A stretch of DNA of 15,567 nucleotides from Acidobacteriota bacterium (GTDB lineage Bacteria > Acidobacteriota > Terriglobia > Terriglobales > Acidobacteriaceae): contig JAJYAE010000065.1 of NCBI GenBank assembly GCA_021779695.1, positions 1-15,567 of the forward strand, written 5' to 3'. The position numbers were made by a program, and so were the translations under genes. Of the stretch, positions 10,050-14,979 are shown piece after piece. The notes under the pieces were generated by a model, which saw only the letters and a list, made by a program, of their open reading frames with translations, searched no databases and was not told where the DNA came from. Positions within the stretch are counted from its first letter, which is position 1. Every line of letters starts with the position of its first letter.

Positions 10050-11051
10050 TCATTCGCCTGTGAATGGATTGCCCTCTGGAGCTTTGCTGGCCGTCGGATC
10101 GTGCCGGGCGGGGGCTTCCTGCGAGACGCTGCGGGCGATGTTTTTCGCGCTGTCCAATGTTTTGTTGAAGACGCGATAGGGGTCACCGGGCAGCAGGTTC
10201 TTTTCTTCGAGCGCGAGACGCACGCGGCGCCGGAACTCACGAACGGGAGCAAACTGCCGGGTTGCGCGCGTTTTGAACACGACGGGAAAAATCATCTCCG
10301 AGCCTTTGACGGCATCCACTCCCAGGATTTGTGGATCGGCAATAAAATCATCACGAAAAATCTCACAGTTTCGAACATCCATGGCGATCTGCCGGAGAAG
10401 CGCGAGGACGGAGTCTGGATTAGCGGAGTAGTCGACACTGACGTTGATGGTGGCGATGGAGTAGTCAATGCTCTGGTTGGCGACGGTCGTGATTTGCGAG
10501 TTGGGGATCACATAGAGGGTTCCGTCGGAGTCGCGTACAGTGGTTCGTCTTAGGGTCATACTTTCGACCACTCCTCCGACGCCGGCAATGCGTACGGTAT
10601 CCCCAACGTTGAATTGGTCTTCAATCAGGATGAGAATGCCGTTCAGCATGTCGCGGACGATGTTCTGGGCGGCGAGGCCGATGGCCACCCCGGCAACACC
10701 TGCTGAGGCAAGCAAAGGGGCCATGTCGACGCCCACGGCGGCGAGGAACTGCATGCCGGCGATGGCGGCAATAATGGCCAGTCCGGTGGTACGGATGACA
10801 CCGGCTAAAGTCTTGACCTGACCCATGCGGGCGGGACCTGCCGCATGCTGCTCGGCGACGTAGACCATTCGAGCTGTGAATGCGCGAAGCAACCGATTGA
10901 GAATAAAGGCGATAATTGCCACCATGATGAGGTGTGGCAACTTGATGTGGAGGAACTCCTGCGTGTCGTCTATCCACTCATCCAGCACCTTGCCCATGAA
11001 TTGCCCACGGGTAAGCCATGCCGTGCCGGCCGCAAGTAAAAAGGGATGCAT
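10050..11051 (-). CDS. MscS-family mechanosensitive ion channel
   Basis: The 333-residue inner-membrane channel should open under membrane tension and release solutes during osmotic downshock. A first membrane helix lies near 39-60 (LPHLIMVAIIAFIL). A second is near 82-105. The pore-lining TM3 covers about 109-145, with the small-residue stretch ASAGVAGVAIGLAAQN followed by LIEDQFNVGDTVRI. The cytoplasmic beta domain includes TTVRDSDGTLYVIPNSQI (170-187). The size and three membrane helices match the small MscS class rather than the long MscK or YbiO forms. The start ATG 11051 is supported by CAGGAGA about 5 bases upstream. The last 30 or so residues are polar and unlike the fold, as is common. 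It is divergent from three small secreted proteins and convergent with the DUF255 gene. Confidence 0.92.
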   Translation of the reverse strand: MHPFLLAAGTAWLTRGQFMGKVLDEWIDDTQEFLHIKLPHLIMVAIIAFILNRLLRAFTARMVYVAEQHAAGPARMGQVKTLAGVIRTTGLAIIAAIAGMQFLAAVGVDMAPLLASAGVAGVAIGLAAQNIVRDMLNGILILIEDQFNVGDTVRIAGVGGVVESMTLRRTTVRDSDGTLYVIPNSQITTVANQSIDYSIATINVSVDYSANPDSVLALLRQIAMDVRNCEIFRDDFIADPQILGVDAVKGSEMIFPVVFKTRATRQFAPVREFRRRVRLALEEKNLLPGDPYRVFNKTLDSAKNIARSVSQEAPARHDPTASKAPEGNPFTGE

Positions 11052-11163
11052 CGCAATCTCCTGTTTTCTAGACTAGACTGTGCGCAGACAGCTTCGGGGC
11101 GTATTCGATCCGAGATCCCCAGGTTTGAGAAATTGCCCCGGACGTGAGGGAAGTGCAGGCCGC

Positions 11164-11170
11164 AGGAGGT
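11164..11170 (+). promoter_or_regulatory. Strong Shine-Dalgarno of the first small secreted paralogue
   Basis: AGGAGGT, a near-perfect anti-16S match, lies 4 bases before ATG 11175. An in-frame GTG at 11169 falls inside this motif and is therefore unlikely as the start. Confidence 0.65.
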
Positions 11171-11174
11171 GCGC

Positions 11175-11642
11175 ATGACTTTCCATCGCAAAGGCAGACT
11201 CATCTGTCGAATCGTGAAGGTTCCTCATTATCTTCAGCAATCGAAGACACGAAGGACGATGTTGCTGTCTTGGACTGCGGCGACTGTCTTCCTGTCCTGG
11301 GCAACCTGGATAGCGTGCCAAACACCGTCCACGCCTGCCGCACACCACGAGACGAGTGGGAACTCGGTTGCAACGGGAGCGGTAGCGAAGGGCAATCCGG
11401 CAGCTGCGAAAGCGCATGCGGCTCCGCAAAAGCCACCGGGCCCTGCAGAAATTGCGCACCGGCAAAAGATGGTGGCTGAAAGCACGCAGATGCTGAGCCT
11501 TGCTGTTGCACTGAAGGCGGCTGTAGATAAGACCAATAAAGACACGCTGTCGCTGAATGTGATCCGCCGAGCGAATGAATTGGAACGGCTTGCGCACAGC
11601 ATGAAGGAGGAACTGCGACAAACGGGAGGACCGGGCAGTTAG
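11175..11642 (+). CDS. Small exported protein of unknown function, paralogue 1 of 3
   Basis: This 155-residue protein is not one I can name. A basic N-terminus (1-28) precedes a hydrophobic segment (29-47, MLLSWTAATVFLSWATWIA) and C48. The WIAC site resembles a weak lipobox, so it could be a lipoprotein or a signal-peptidase-I substrate. An Ala/Pro/His-rich linker follows (51-92). The C-terminal domain (95-150) aligns without gaps to both downstream paralogues. It is predicted helical, two helices split by a short loop near 119-126, with L109-A110, A115, L125, I130, E137 and L139-A140 invariant. The strong AGGAGGT favours ATG 11175. ATG 11259 (MLLSW) would give a normal short signal peptide and has GAAGGA just upstream, so it remains possible. 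It is divergent from MscS and 102 bases before paralogue 2. An envelope location is inferred. Confidence 0.7.
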   Translation: MTFHRKGRLICRIVKVPHYLQQSKTRRTMLLSWTAATVFLSWATWIACQTPSTPAAHHETSGNSVATGAVAKGNPAAAKAHAAPQKPPGPAEIAHRQKMVAESTQMLSLAVALKAAVDKTNKDTLSLNVIRRANELERLAHSMKEELRQTGGPGS

Positions 11643-11744
11643 GCCCATGGGGCTGAAGAAGAAAGCGCAAGCTGCGCGCACTCAAGCCAATTGGAGCGGA
11701 CCTTTGGATTTGCGGGATATGAAGGTGATCGCGTGGAGGCTGCA

Positions 11745-12209
11745 ATGAAATTCTGCTGGCACCAATTCAGGCGGGTAATGGTGGGGCCGGGATCGAATCC
11801 TGGGAAATATGGGGGAACCTCCAGGTGGGCGATGATGATTGCCGGCGCGCTGATGCTGCTCTTGGCTCCCACTGTTTGCGCGCAGGGGGGGCAGACGGCC
11901 AACGGTCCTCCGAAGCCTCTCGGATACGTCCTGCCAGAAGCGAATCGCCCGCCCGATGCAAACGACCGGATGGTGATGCAGCAAGAGCATAAGAAGGCTG
12001 AAGACTTCGAAAGAGTGAATGCCGCGCGGCTTCGCCAAATCAACGATGAAAGTACCAAGCTGGTGATTCTGGCACGGGATGTAAAGGCCAAGATGGATCT
12101 GGCTGGAACGAAGCCGCTTCCGCCGGAACTGATCAAGGAGGCGGAGGTGATCGAACTGCTGGCCCATGATGTACAGCAAAAGATGAAGCTGACCGTGGGT
12201 GGGGGCTAG
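11745..12209 (+). CDS. Small exported protein of unknown function, paralogue 2 of 3
   Basis: The 154-residue protein is unnamed. It has a long N-region (1-28), a hydrophobic core (29-44, MMIAGALMLLLAPTV) and a likely cleavage at VCA|QGG near 46. A Pro-rich stretch (55-72) leads to a charged segment and then the shared domain at 95-150, at exactly the same residue numbers as in paralogue 1. The ending LLAHDVQQKMKLT matches the others. GGAGG at 11735-11739 lies 5 bases before ATG 11745 and decides the start. An in-frame TTG at 11691 is too early. ATG 11832 would leave a short signal peptide and is the alternative. The next paralogue begins 3 bases after the stop, so the two are surely one transcript and probably translationally coupled. 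Function is unknown. Confidence 0.72.
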   Translation: MKFCWHQFRRVMVGPGSNPGKYGGTSRWAMMIAGALMLLLAPTVCAQGGQTANGPPKPLGYVLPEANRPPDANDRMVMQQEHKKAEDFERVNAARLRQINDESTKLVILARDVKAKMDLAGTKPLPPELIKEAEVIELLAHDVQQKMKLTVGGG

Positions 12210-12212
12210 GGG

Positions 12213-12716
12213 ATGCGTTTTTTTACGAGCCGTCGAAGGGATTTTTTTGAGGCAGACAAGGTGGCTTCGTCCGAAGCTGGAAGTGGTGCCTGCCTATTCT
12301 CAGCGCTTGTACGCTCCTTGGTGGTGTTGTGCTTTCTCTGCGACGGACTGCTCTTTGGCCCTAATCTCGGGCGAGCGCAACAGCCGTCTGGAAGGCCTCC
12401 GATGATGGGCAGAATGGGCTACCCAGGCAATGACATCCCGGCCACGGATCCTGTGCTTCAGGCAAAGCAGGTGCGGGCGTTGAATGAGCAGCGGCAGAAA
12501 CAGATGGTTTCAGATGCTGAGAAGCTGTTGGAACTCGCGCGCGAGCTGCACGCTGCCATTGGAGCGAGCCCGGATTCGTCTCTGACCGCCGACCAGATCC
12601 GAACGATCGAGCGGATTGAAAGGCTGGCAAGGAGCGTGAAGGACAAGATGAGCTTCAGCGTAGTGGATGGACTCCCACCGCAGGTTCCGGGTGCAACGAG
12701 GCTTCCATTTCCGTGA
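12213..12716 (+). CDS. Small exported protein of unknown function, paralogue 3 of 3
   Basis: The 167-residue protein is unnamed. A basic start (RRRD, 7-10) and a long N-region precede a hydrophobic stretch (29-49, SALVRSLVVLCFLCDG...), with possible cleavage near GRA|QQ at 55-56. A Met/Gly/Pro-rich linker (60-80, GRPPMMGRMGYPG) is followed by the shared helical domain at 94-149, with L108-A109, A114, L124, I129, E136 and L138-A139 matching the invariant positions of the other two. A short Pro-rich tail (154-167) is unique to this copy. It starts 3 bases after paralogue 2; GGGGG and AGGGG just upstream may serve as the ribosome site. The linkers and N-termini differ while the C-domain is kept, as expected for old tandem duplicates under selection on the domain. 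Confidence 0.73.
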   Translation: MRFFTSRRRDFFEADKVASSEAGSGACLFSALVRSLVVLCFLCDGLLFGPNLGRAQQPSGRPPMMGRMGYPGNDIPATDPVLQAKQVRALNEQRQKQMVSDAEKLLELARELHAAIGASPDSSLTADQIRTIERIERLARSVKDKMSFSVVDGLPPQVPGATRLPFP

Positions 12717-12810: not shown

Positions 12811-14979
12811 ATGGGAGCTGCGGTTTCCAGCGCACGCAAGCCTAGAGAAGGTGCCGGGCTGGCTGCCGAACAACTGATTGAAATCTACAGATTGATATAT
12901 CTTTCGCGCCGCATTGACGACCGCGAAATCATGCTGAAGCGTCAGCAGAAGATATTCTTCCAGATATCAGGCGCGGGCCACGAAGCTTTACAGGTGGCGG
13001 CGGCGCTGGCGCTCAAACCGGGTTACGACTGGTTCTTCCCCTACTATCGAGACCGTGCGCTTTGCCTGGCGCTCGGTGTTTCGCCGTATCAGATGTTTCT
13101 GCAGGCTGTTGGATCAGCCGAGGACTCAGCCAGCGGCGGACGACAGATGCCAACGCACTGGAGCAGCACGCAACTGCATATTGTGAGCACCTCTTCATCG
13201 ACAGCGACCCAGGTGCTGCATGCGGTAGGGTGTGCGGAAGCAGGGCGGTATTTCAGCCGGCATCCGGAAGCCGCCGTAAAGGCAAGCGGGGATTATCGGG
13301 CATTCCACGATGTGCAGTTTCAAGCGGACGAGGTCGTTCTGACGACCATTGGCGAAGGGTCTACGTCCCAGGGAGAGTTCTGGGAAGCGCTGAGCGCGGC
13401 GTCAAACAAGAAACTGCCAGTTATCTTTTGTGTGGAAGATAATGGGTATGCAATTAGTGTTCCGGTGGAAGTGAATACCCCTGGCGGGAACATCTCGCGG
13501 CTGGTGGCTAATTTCCCGAATTTCTTTTTTGCGGAAGTAGACGGGACGGATCCGGAAGCATCGCTTCGGGCGTTCGAAACTGCGGCTGCGCATTGCCGGG
13601 CTGGTCTTGGGCCTGCCTTTATCCACGGGCATTGCATCCGGCCTTACTCGCACTCGCTTTCAGATGACGACAAGCTCTATCGCTCTGCGGCGGAGCGCGA
13701 GGCGGATGCACTCCGCGACCCACTGACCAAAATGCAGATGCGCCTGCTACGCGAGGGTATTCTGACTGCGGAGCAGATTGCCGAATTGGAACAGGCTGCC
13801 GACCGAGAAGCCGCCGAGGCCGCAGAGAAGGCGCTAGGCGCTGCACTGCCAGAGATCGCGAGTATTCCGCGGCATGTGTATTCGGAAGACCTGGATCCAG
13901 TTCATGCCGACTTTGCGACGGAGATGCCGAAGGCGCCGAACGGCAAAGGCACCGCGCCGAAGACGATGGCGGACCTGATCAACGCGTGCCTGCACGATGA
14001 GATGCGGCGCGATCCGCGCATCGTGGTCTATGGCGAAGACGTGGCAGACGCGAGTCGCGAGACCGCCCTCACTGAGGTCAAGGGCAAGGGCGGCGTCTTC
14101 AAGCTGACAGCGGGTCTGCAGACAAAGTTCGGCTCCGAACGGGTCTTCAATTCTCAACTTGCCGAAGCCAACATCGTCGGCAGAGCCGTGGGATATGCGG
14201 TGCGCGGCATGAAGCCGGTGGTGGAGATCCAGTTCTTCGATTACATCTGGCCGGCGATGCACCAGATCCGCAACGAGCTTGCCCTGATGCGGTGGCGGTC
14301 AAACGGAACATGGGCCGCACCTGCGGTGATGCGTGTGCCGATCGGCGGATACTTGACCGGCGGAGCAATCTATCATTCGCAGTCCGGCGAGAGCATGTTT
14401 ACGCATATTCCGGGCCTGCGCGTGGTCTTTCCGTCGAATGCGCTGGACGCGAATGGACTACTGCGAACGGCGATTCGATGTGATGACCCGGTGTTGTTCC
14501 TCGAGCACAAGCGGCTTTATCGAGAGACCTATGGCCGGGCGGCATATCCGGGACCGGATTTTGCCATTCCGTTTGGCAAGGCAAAGATTGTGCGGCCGGG
14601 CAAGGATCTGACCCTGGTCACCTATGGCGCCGTGGTGCCGCGGGCTCTGCAGGCTGCTGAACGCGCGCATCGTGAGAACGGCATCGACGTGGAGATTCTG
14701 GATCTGCGCACGCTCAGCCCGTATGACTGGGAGGCGATTGCGACCTCGGTTCACAAGACGAGTCGCGTGATTGTGGCGCACGAGGACATGCTGAGCTGGG
14801 GCTATGGGGCGGAGATTGCAGCGCGGATTGCGGATGAGCTCTTTGAGGATCTGGATGCGCCGGTGAAGCGTGTGGGATCGATGGATACGTTTGTGGCGTA
14901 TCAGCCCCAACTGGAGGATGCGATCCTTCCGCAGCCGGAGACCATTTTGAGGGCAATTCGCGAACTGCGGGCTTATTAA
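12811..14979 (+). CDS. Fused E1 alpha/beta subunit of a 2-oxo acid (probably branched-chain) dehydrogenase
   Basis: This 722-residue thiamine-diphosphate enzyme decarboxylates 2-oxo acids and passes the acyl group to an E2 lipoyl protein. The alpha half (about 20-345) contains SGAGHEAL (53-60), FPYYRDRAL (76-84) and GGRQMPTHW (109-117). The ThDP/Mg motif runs from G181-E-G to N211 ([10 protein letters not shown]...VEDNGYAIS), followed by the loop [11 protein letters not shown] (277-287). The beta half (about 384-722) contains VYGEDVA (407-413), [16 protein letters not shown] (446-461), YHSQSGE (521-527) and [11 protein letters not shown] (630-640). The two are separate proteins in many bacteria and are joined by a roughly 40-residue linker here. 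The branched-chain type is my best guess; pyruvate or acetoin dehydrogenase is possible. GGGAG 8 bases upstream supports ATG 12811. No E2 or E3 gene is in the window. Confidence 0.9.

Follow-up and report, generated by a model that had tools for sequence, protein, structure and literature searches.

Periplasmic proteins of the Spy/CpxP (LTXXQ), ZraP, and CnrX types are exported, are built on a helical hairpin unit, and form oligomers; Spy/CpxP proteins are defined by two LTxxQ motifs. Here, we describe three tandem genes (copies A, B, and C) in an acidobacterial window (the whole stretch of DNA that was analyzed, 15,567 nucleotides), whose family shares with these systems a predicted export and a predicted helical hairpin. 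The likeness in fold is weak, and copies A, B, and C differ from these systems in having a smaller domain and no metal ligands such as Cys. The profiles LTXXQ (PF07813) and Metal_resist (PF13801) did not match A, B, or C at an E value of 1, and where the Spy/CpxP definition calls for two motifs, copy C has one (LTADQ) and A and B have none. WXG100/EsxA proteins are described as small exported helical hairpin proteins (PMC11217815), which is also what is predicted for A, B, and C. The copies differ from this group in their signal-like N terminus, and because there is no Trp in any of the three hairpin domains, there is no WXG turn. The profile and motif tests place the family in neither Spy/CpxP/ZraP nor WXG100.

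Acidobacteria abound in soil, and little of their own gene repertoire has been characterized. A sequence-only reading of the window had proposed that three consecutive genes encode paralogues sharing a C-terminal domain, and all three open reading frames (ORFs) were found where it had placed them (Table 1). The ungapped alignment of 56-residue stretches was reproduced, with 16 identities for A-B, 17 for A-C, and 18 for B-C by hand count, and L109, A110, A115, L125, I130, E137, L139, and A140 are identical in all three copies. Pairwise domain scores were 72, 83, and 70 for the three pairs. None of 2,000 full shuffles reached the score of any pair (z scores of 10.2, 12.0, and 10.6), and among 5,000 shuffles that kept the hydrophobic/polar pattern, 0, 1, and 0 did so. 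Because pattern-keeping shuffles almost never reach the domain scores, the likeness exceeds what helical composition would give. The dN/dS values of the domains (Table 1), calculated against the nearest relative (genome G001), are close to that of the neighboring mechanosensitive channel gene (0.07), whereas those of the N-terminal halves are 0.42 (A), 0.36 (B), and 0.44 (C); this contrast indicates that the genes are translated and that the C-terminal domain is constrained. It could be argued that these are not real genes, or that helical sequences resemble each other by chance, since in this GC-rich DNA long frames occur on the opposite strand too. The purifying selection on the domain, the rarity with which pattern-keeping shuffles match its scores, the presence of the family in most sampled genomes of the class, and the retrieval of all three copies by a profile that excludes the window and G001 (both detailed below) have already refuted this argument, to which we assign next to no probability. 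Three consecutive genes share a constrained C-terminal domain of approximately 57 residues.

Table 1. Features of the window, with positions, strand, and the basis of each assignment
Feature	Positions	Strand	Basis
Copy A, 155 aa, MscS-side paralogue	11175..11642	+	ORF, tree, family profile
Hairpin domain of copy A (predicted fold), residues 93-150	11451..11624	+	dN/dS 0.07; AlphaFold2 helices 90-119, 127-151
Copy B, 154 aa, middle paralogue	11745..12209	+	ORF, tree, family profile
Hairpin domain of copy B (predicted fold), residues 93-150	12021..12194	+	dN/dS 0.09; alignment
Copy C, 167 aa, last paralogue, distinct subtype	12213..12716	+	ORF, tree, family profile
Hairpin domain of copy C (predicted fold), residues 90-149	12480..12659	+	dN/dS 0.13; alignment
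MscS-type mechanosensitive channel gene, divergent from array	10050..11051	-	Pfam PF00924, 70.4 bits (cut-off 20.2)
Divergent intergenic region between MscS gene and copy A, 123 bases	11052..11174	no strand	ORF coordinates
Fused E1-type dehydrogenase gene, one frame for alpha and beta parts	12811..14979	+	Pfam PF00676, PF02779, PF02780

The array lies between a divergent MscS-type channel gene and a gene for an E1 component of a 2-oxoacid dehydrogenase, whose alpha and beta parts form a single frame of 722 amino acids. Against NCBIfam, both neighbors matched models of the expected kind (MscS and E1, respectively) with scores under the model cut-offs only. The intergenic region upstream of copy A presumably holds the promoters of both the MscS gene and copy A; no sigma-70-like consensus site was found in it. 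By eye, purine-rich stretches resembling Shine-Dalgarno sequences lie 5' of the ATGs at 11175 and 11745. Searches of the window with Rfam at gathering thresholds and with ARAGORN for tRNAs gave no match.

Each copy consists of a signal-like segment, a fast-evolving linker, and the C-terminal domain. By simple rules (a hydrophobicity rule rather than SignalP), a strongly hydrophobic segment precedes the domain in 123 of 131 family members, an AxA-like site is found in 118, and a lipobox in 3; no Cys was found in 80 domains examined. The helical hairpin suggested by the sequence-only reading reappeared in an AlphaFold2 model of copy A (90 sequences), which placed two helices in the domain (Table 1) and a third, at residues 25 to 48, over the signal segment. 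By block, pLDDT was 74 to 85 over residues 91 to 150 and 44 to 64 over residues 1 to 80, for an overall pLDDT of 65 and a pTM of 0.37. The same hairpin was predicted for a class-level relative (helices 39-77 and 85-105; blocks of 73 to 92; 74 sequences). Comparison of the fold to the PDB with Foldseek revealed no significant match (best E 1.6). Export of the family proteins and their hairpin fold are thus predictions from these rules and models. Both helices of the hairpin carry a pattern resembling [LI]x[KR]LAxx[LV]Kxx[VM], and when columns were shuffled, 2 of 2,000 free shuffles and 20 of 2,000 pattern-keeping shuffles reached the observed score, which is only suggestive of a helix duplication within the domain. 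By eye, 6 of the 14 last-type copies, copy C of the window (residues 124 to 128) among them, also have an LTxxQ string ahead of helix 2; this string is possibly a chance helix cap.

No match above cut-off was obtained for A, B, or C in Pfam or NCBIfam, and a search of the PDB by sequence returned no family covering the domain (best E 0.083). When 90 members were scanned against Pfam at an E value of 0.1, 32 families matched some member; among the 25 of these that were listed, none occurred in more than 6 of the 90 members (best E 0.00058) and PF07813 was absent. PF13801 matched one of the 90 (E 0.032). We read these scattered matches as noise. A 45-row profile that left out the window sequences and G001 retrieved all three copies from the 72 ORFs of the window (A, 1.1e-19; C, 2.7e-25; B, 4.2e-19) and nothing beyond them at an E value of 1, in keeping with the proposal that the domain defines a new family. 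Copy C as a lone query also recovered the other two copies of G001 but was a poor seed, reaching one related locus in genome contigs and 5 database proteins, two of which carry no source, as would be expected of the window's own proteins. Profile searches of 5.8 billion proteins returned at least 839 and at least 2,465 proteins at an E value of ≤1e-3, counts that are lower bounds because about 8,000 candidates were scored in each search. The few names among the 120 matches listed per search were hypothetical proteins assigned to Terracidiphilus, Terriglobales, or Acidobacteria; these public clusters belong to the same family as A, B, and C, and in the matches listed they carry no function, name, or Pfam domain. 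Among the papers listed in a literature search of an open-licence library, none dealt with the family. PMC10875860 describes small acidobacterial hypothetical proteins in methanol-dehydrogenase clusters. As a kind, the small exported helical protein is familiar; a family with class-wide spread and linkage to MscS appears undescribed within the libraries searched.

To define the spread of the family, we searched samples of genomes of at least 85% completeness with a 13-row domain profile that included the three window copies; the kinship of the window genome was judged from its nearest relative, G001. The family was found in 127 of 150 genomes (39 of 44 genera) of the order and in 324 of 399 genomes (128 of 141 genera) of the class. 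In the phylum sample, 25 of 198 genomes had a match, 21 of them in the window's own taxonomic family; of the rest, one came from a different order of the class, and three were weak matches elsewhere in the phylum (E 1.2e-4 to 8.3e-4), which may be due to chance. Beyond the window's order, the matches listed were mostly one per genome, with weaker E values. A, B, and C are members of a class-wide family of small proteins, as yet without a name, whose relatedness is seen in sequence and whose export and fold are predicted.

In the window's genus, this family has expanded into an array of 0 to 6 copies. Tandem copies precede the fused E1 gene in the window and in 13 further loci of the genus, so that the expected recurrence of tandem copies beside the same neighbors held at this level. 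Of the 14 arrays, 13 comprise 2 to 6 copies, and one (L035), near a contig end, has a single copy. The E1 gene follows in all 14 arrays read, the window included, and a divergent MscS gene flanks 12; the other two are L035, where the contig ends, and L038, where no MscS match was seen. Five more loci of the genus (L024, L026, L027, L029, and L034) have copies but no adjoining MscS or E1 gene. At one of these (L027:7698-9870), two stand-alone copies adjoin a gene for a multihaem cytochrome (PF13435, PF14522) that is encoded on the strand they occupy. No family match was obtained in one genome of the genus (G019), and at L163 to L166, from genomes in which the genome-wide family search used copy C only, MscS directly faces E1 with no array between them. 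In a tree of 43 copies (62 columns), all 14 last-position copies and 2 middle ones fell on one side (support, 99/94) and five middle copies, including B of the window, clustered together (98/95); 20 of the 40 inner branches of this tree were open, and its bootstrap had not converged. As judged from this tree, the last copy represents an old and separate paralogue. Copy order and subtype have for the most part been kept, an argument against simple dosage.

The neighbor most consistently conserved beside the family gene is an MscS channel, and we know of no periplasmic MscS partner family of this kind. An MscS orthologue (E < 1e-40) was present in 120 of the 150 genomes of the order sample, and 103 of these also had listed family coordinates. 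A copy and the channel gene lay within 2.5 kb of each other in 95 of the 103, divergently in 94 of the 95; these loci share descent and so do not count as independent trials. The eight exceptions (G022, G028, G030, G062, G079, G081, G094, and G119) rest on the family matches listed, and weaker further copies may exist in those genomes. Paired MscS proteins were as low as 36% identical to that of the window (G117). We also read 70 further loci that had been chosen for a family match, 40 from the window's taxonomic family (33 genera) and 30 from other families (29 in the class and one elsewhere in the phylum). An MscS gene lay within 3 kb in 30 of the 40 and in 5 of the 30, and in all 35 cases it was upstream on the opposite strand. 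With neighbors counted evenly at the same distance in the 40 loci, membrane pyrophosphatase was found in 21, DUF255 in 9, E1 in 6, and every other window gene in 0 or 1, indicating that the link to the channel outlasts the rest. Conserved synteny in other Acidobacteriota, as anticipated by the sequence-only reading, therefore stood for MscS and less so for the downstream gene. E1 (6 of the 40 loci, and 0 of the 30 elsewhere) was rejected as a functional partner.

Presence of the two genes across the 150 genomes was less strict. Both were present in 107, the family only in 20, MscS only in 13, and neither in 10 (hand counts; Fisher P = 0.0045, uncorrected for kinship). We examined 16 readable MscS loci from genomes without the family (12 readable of 13 fetched, and L163 to L166). 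None contained a family match even at an E value of 1, and a sensitive scan of 12 loci of this type, with short flanks, found no remnant (best E 1.9). In 13 of the 16, E1 was no more than two genes away from MscS, and in 9 it directly abutted the channel gene. Because E1 keeps close to MscS in these loci, DUF255-MscS-E1 is itself an inherited block that lost the family. An obligate partnership with MscS was rejected, since lineages without the family keep MscS and co-presence is loose.

The second recurrent neighbor, a membrane pyrophosphatase (PF03030), lay within 3 kb in 4 of the 30 loci outside the window's taxonomic family, in addition to the 21 within it. It was downstream of the family gene in all 25 loci and convergent in 22. 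One or both of MscS and pyrophosphatase were within 3 kb in 35 of the 40 loci and in 8 of the 30; the remaining 22 of the 30 had neither. Best matches to three reference proteins divided the pyrophosphatases into groups of 15, 9, and 1 loci; eight were checked against NCBIfam, where the single member of the third group scored under the cut-off of its best model. Pyrophosphatases of the three subfamilies lie downstream, mostly convergently, at L102, L106, L133, L138, L142, and L159, among others. At L159, a locus of another family of the class, the family gene stands between MscS and the pyrophosphatase. At L193, in the family-less genome G099, a pyrophosphatase directly precedes MscS, with E1 beyond, so the two transporters can adjoin without a family gene.

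Other genes were found beside the family gene as well. Outside the window's taxonomic family, they include genes for D-Ala-D-Ala ligase, homoserine dehydrogenase, or glyceraldehyde-3-phosphate dehydrogenase. At all four loci from two other families of the class, f75 and f74 (L145, L150, L153, and L154), the family gene is followed in convergent orientation by a gene of one cluster. NCBIfam identifies the L145 representative of this cluster as a D-Ala-D-Ala ligase, a link to the cell wall. A subtilase-type peptidase gene (PF00082) of one cluster is beside or near the family gene at 7 loci in two families (e.g., L094:8961-10586 and L134:3745-5118).

Because the family gene lies back to back with MscS and is often convergent with an ion-pumping pyrophosphatase, a role in the envelope response to osmotic or ionic stress is the most likely one, and to an exported hairpin that oligomerizes in the periplasm and serves this response we tentatively give a probability of about 0.4. 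The protein would begin with a signal-like segment, continue through a disordered linker, and end in a C-terminal two-helix hairpin, whose Leu/Ala-rich faces would most likely pair between chains to form a periplasmic helical bundle. The family gene and the channel gene may be expressed from the same divergent region. In the genus array, the first and last members, as different old paralogues, could be subunits of a mixed oligomer, which fits that difference better than an extra dose does. Against this reading stand the genomes that have only one of the two genes, the loci outside the window's taxonomic family that lack both transporters nearby, and the absence of a promoter consensus from the divergent region; some of the block is, moreover, plain inheritance of gene order. 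A family protein may also bind the MscS channel. A more specific proposal, which we regard as unlikely, makes the family a dedicated periplasmic module for ion and volume control within one bacterial class: its hairpin oligomers would tune MscS and, in other lineages, work alongside pyrophosphatases, and lineage-specific arrays would provide mixed oligomers of different sensitivity.

The same gene order could instead have been inherited around a general envelope protein, for example, one that associates with the cell wall or the outer membrane, with no particular tie to the channel and with arrays that reflect lineage-specific surface needs. We consider this nearly as likely as the osmotic or ionic role. 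It would account for a near class-wide presence that nonetheless leaves most loci outside the window's taxonomic family without either transporter within 3 kb, for the retention of the DUF255-MscS-E1 order in genomes without the family, and for the fast evolution of the N-terminal part. It is harder to reconcile with an MscS pair that persists through the order sample though other neighbors are mostly gone, and that is also seen in two further families of the class (L136, L140, L141, and L148 in one; L159 in the other).

Two further explanations follow from the predicted protein itself. A small helical hairpin that is exported and forms oligomers might be a periplasmic stress chaperone or metal binder like Spy, CpxP, ZraP, or CnrX, and CnrX (E 2.3) and ZraP (E 3.8) do appear, weakly, among the generic hairpins matched by Foldseek, while the LTxxQ string of some last-type copies, C of the window included, recalls the Spy/CpxP motif. 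We nevertheless find this improbable, given that no Foldseek match was significant, that neither the LTXXQ nor the metal-resistance Pfam model matched A, B, or C, that the domains lack Cys, and that 8 of the 14 last copies have no LTxxQ string. With an export signal, no membrane anchor, and no lipobox in 128 of 131 members, and with a variable copy number, the protein could also be released from the cell, e.g., into an intercellular matrix in which the hairpin is the assembly unit; its conserved neighbors are inner-membrane transporters, however, and we think this very improbable.

The divergent MscS neighbor makes an unknown function open to concrete tests, and in a genus whose copy number ranges from 0 to 6, natural losses and expansions can be compared.
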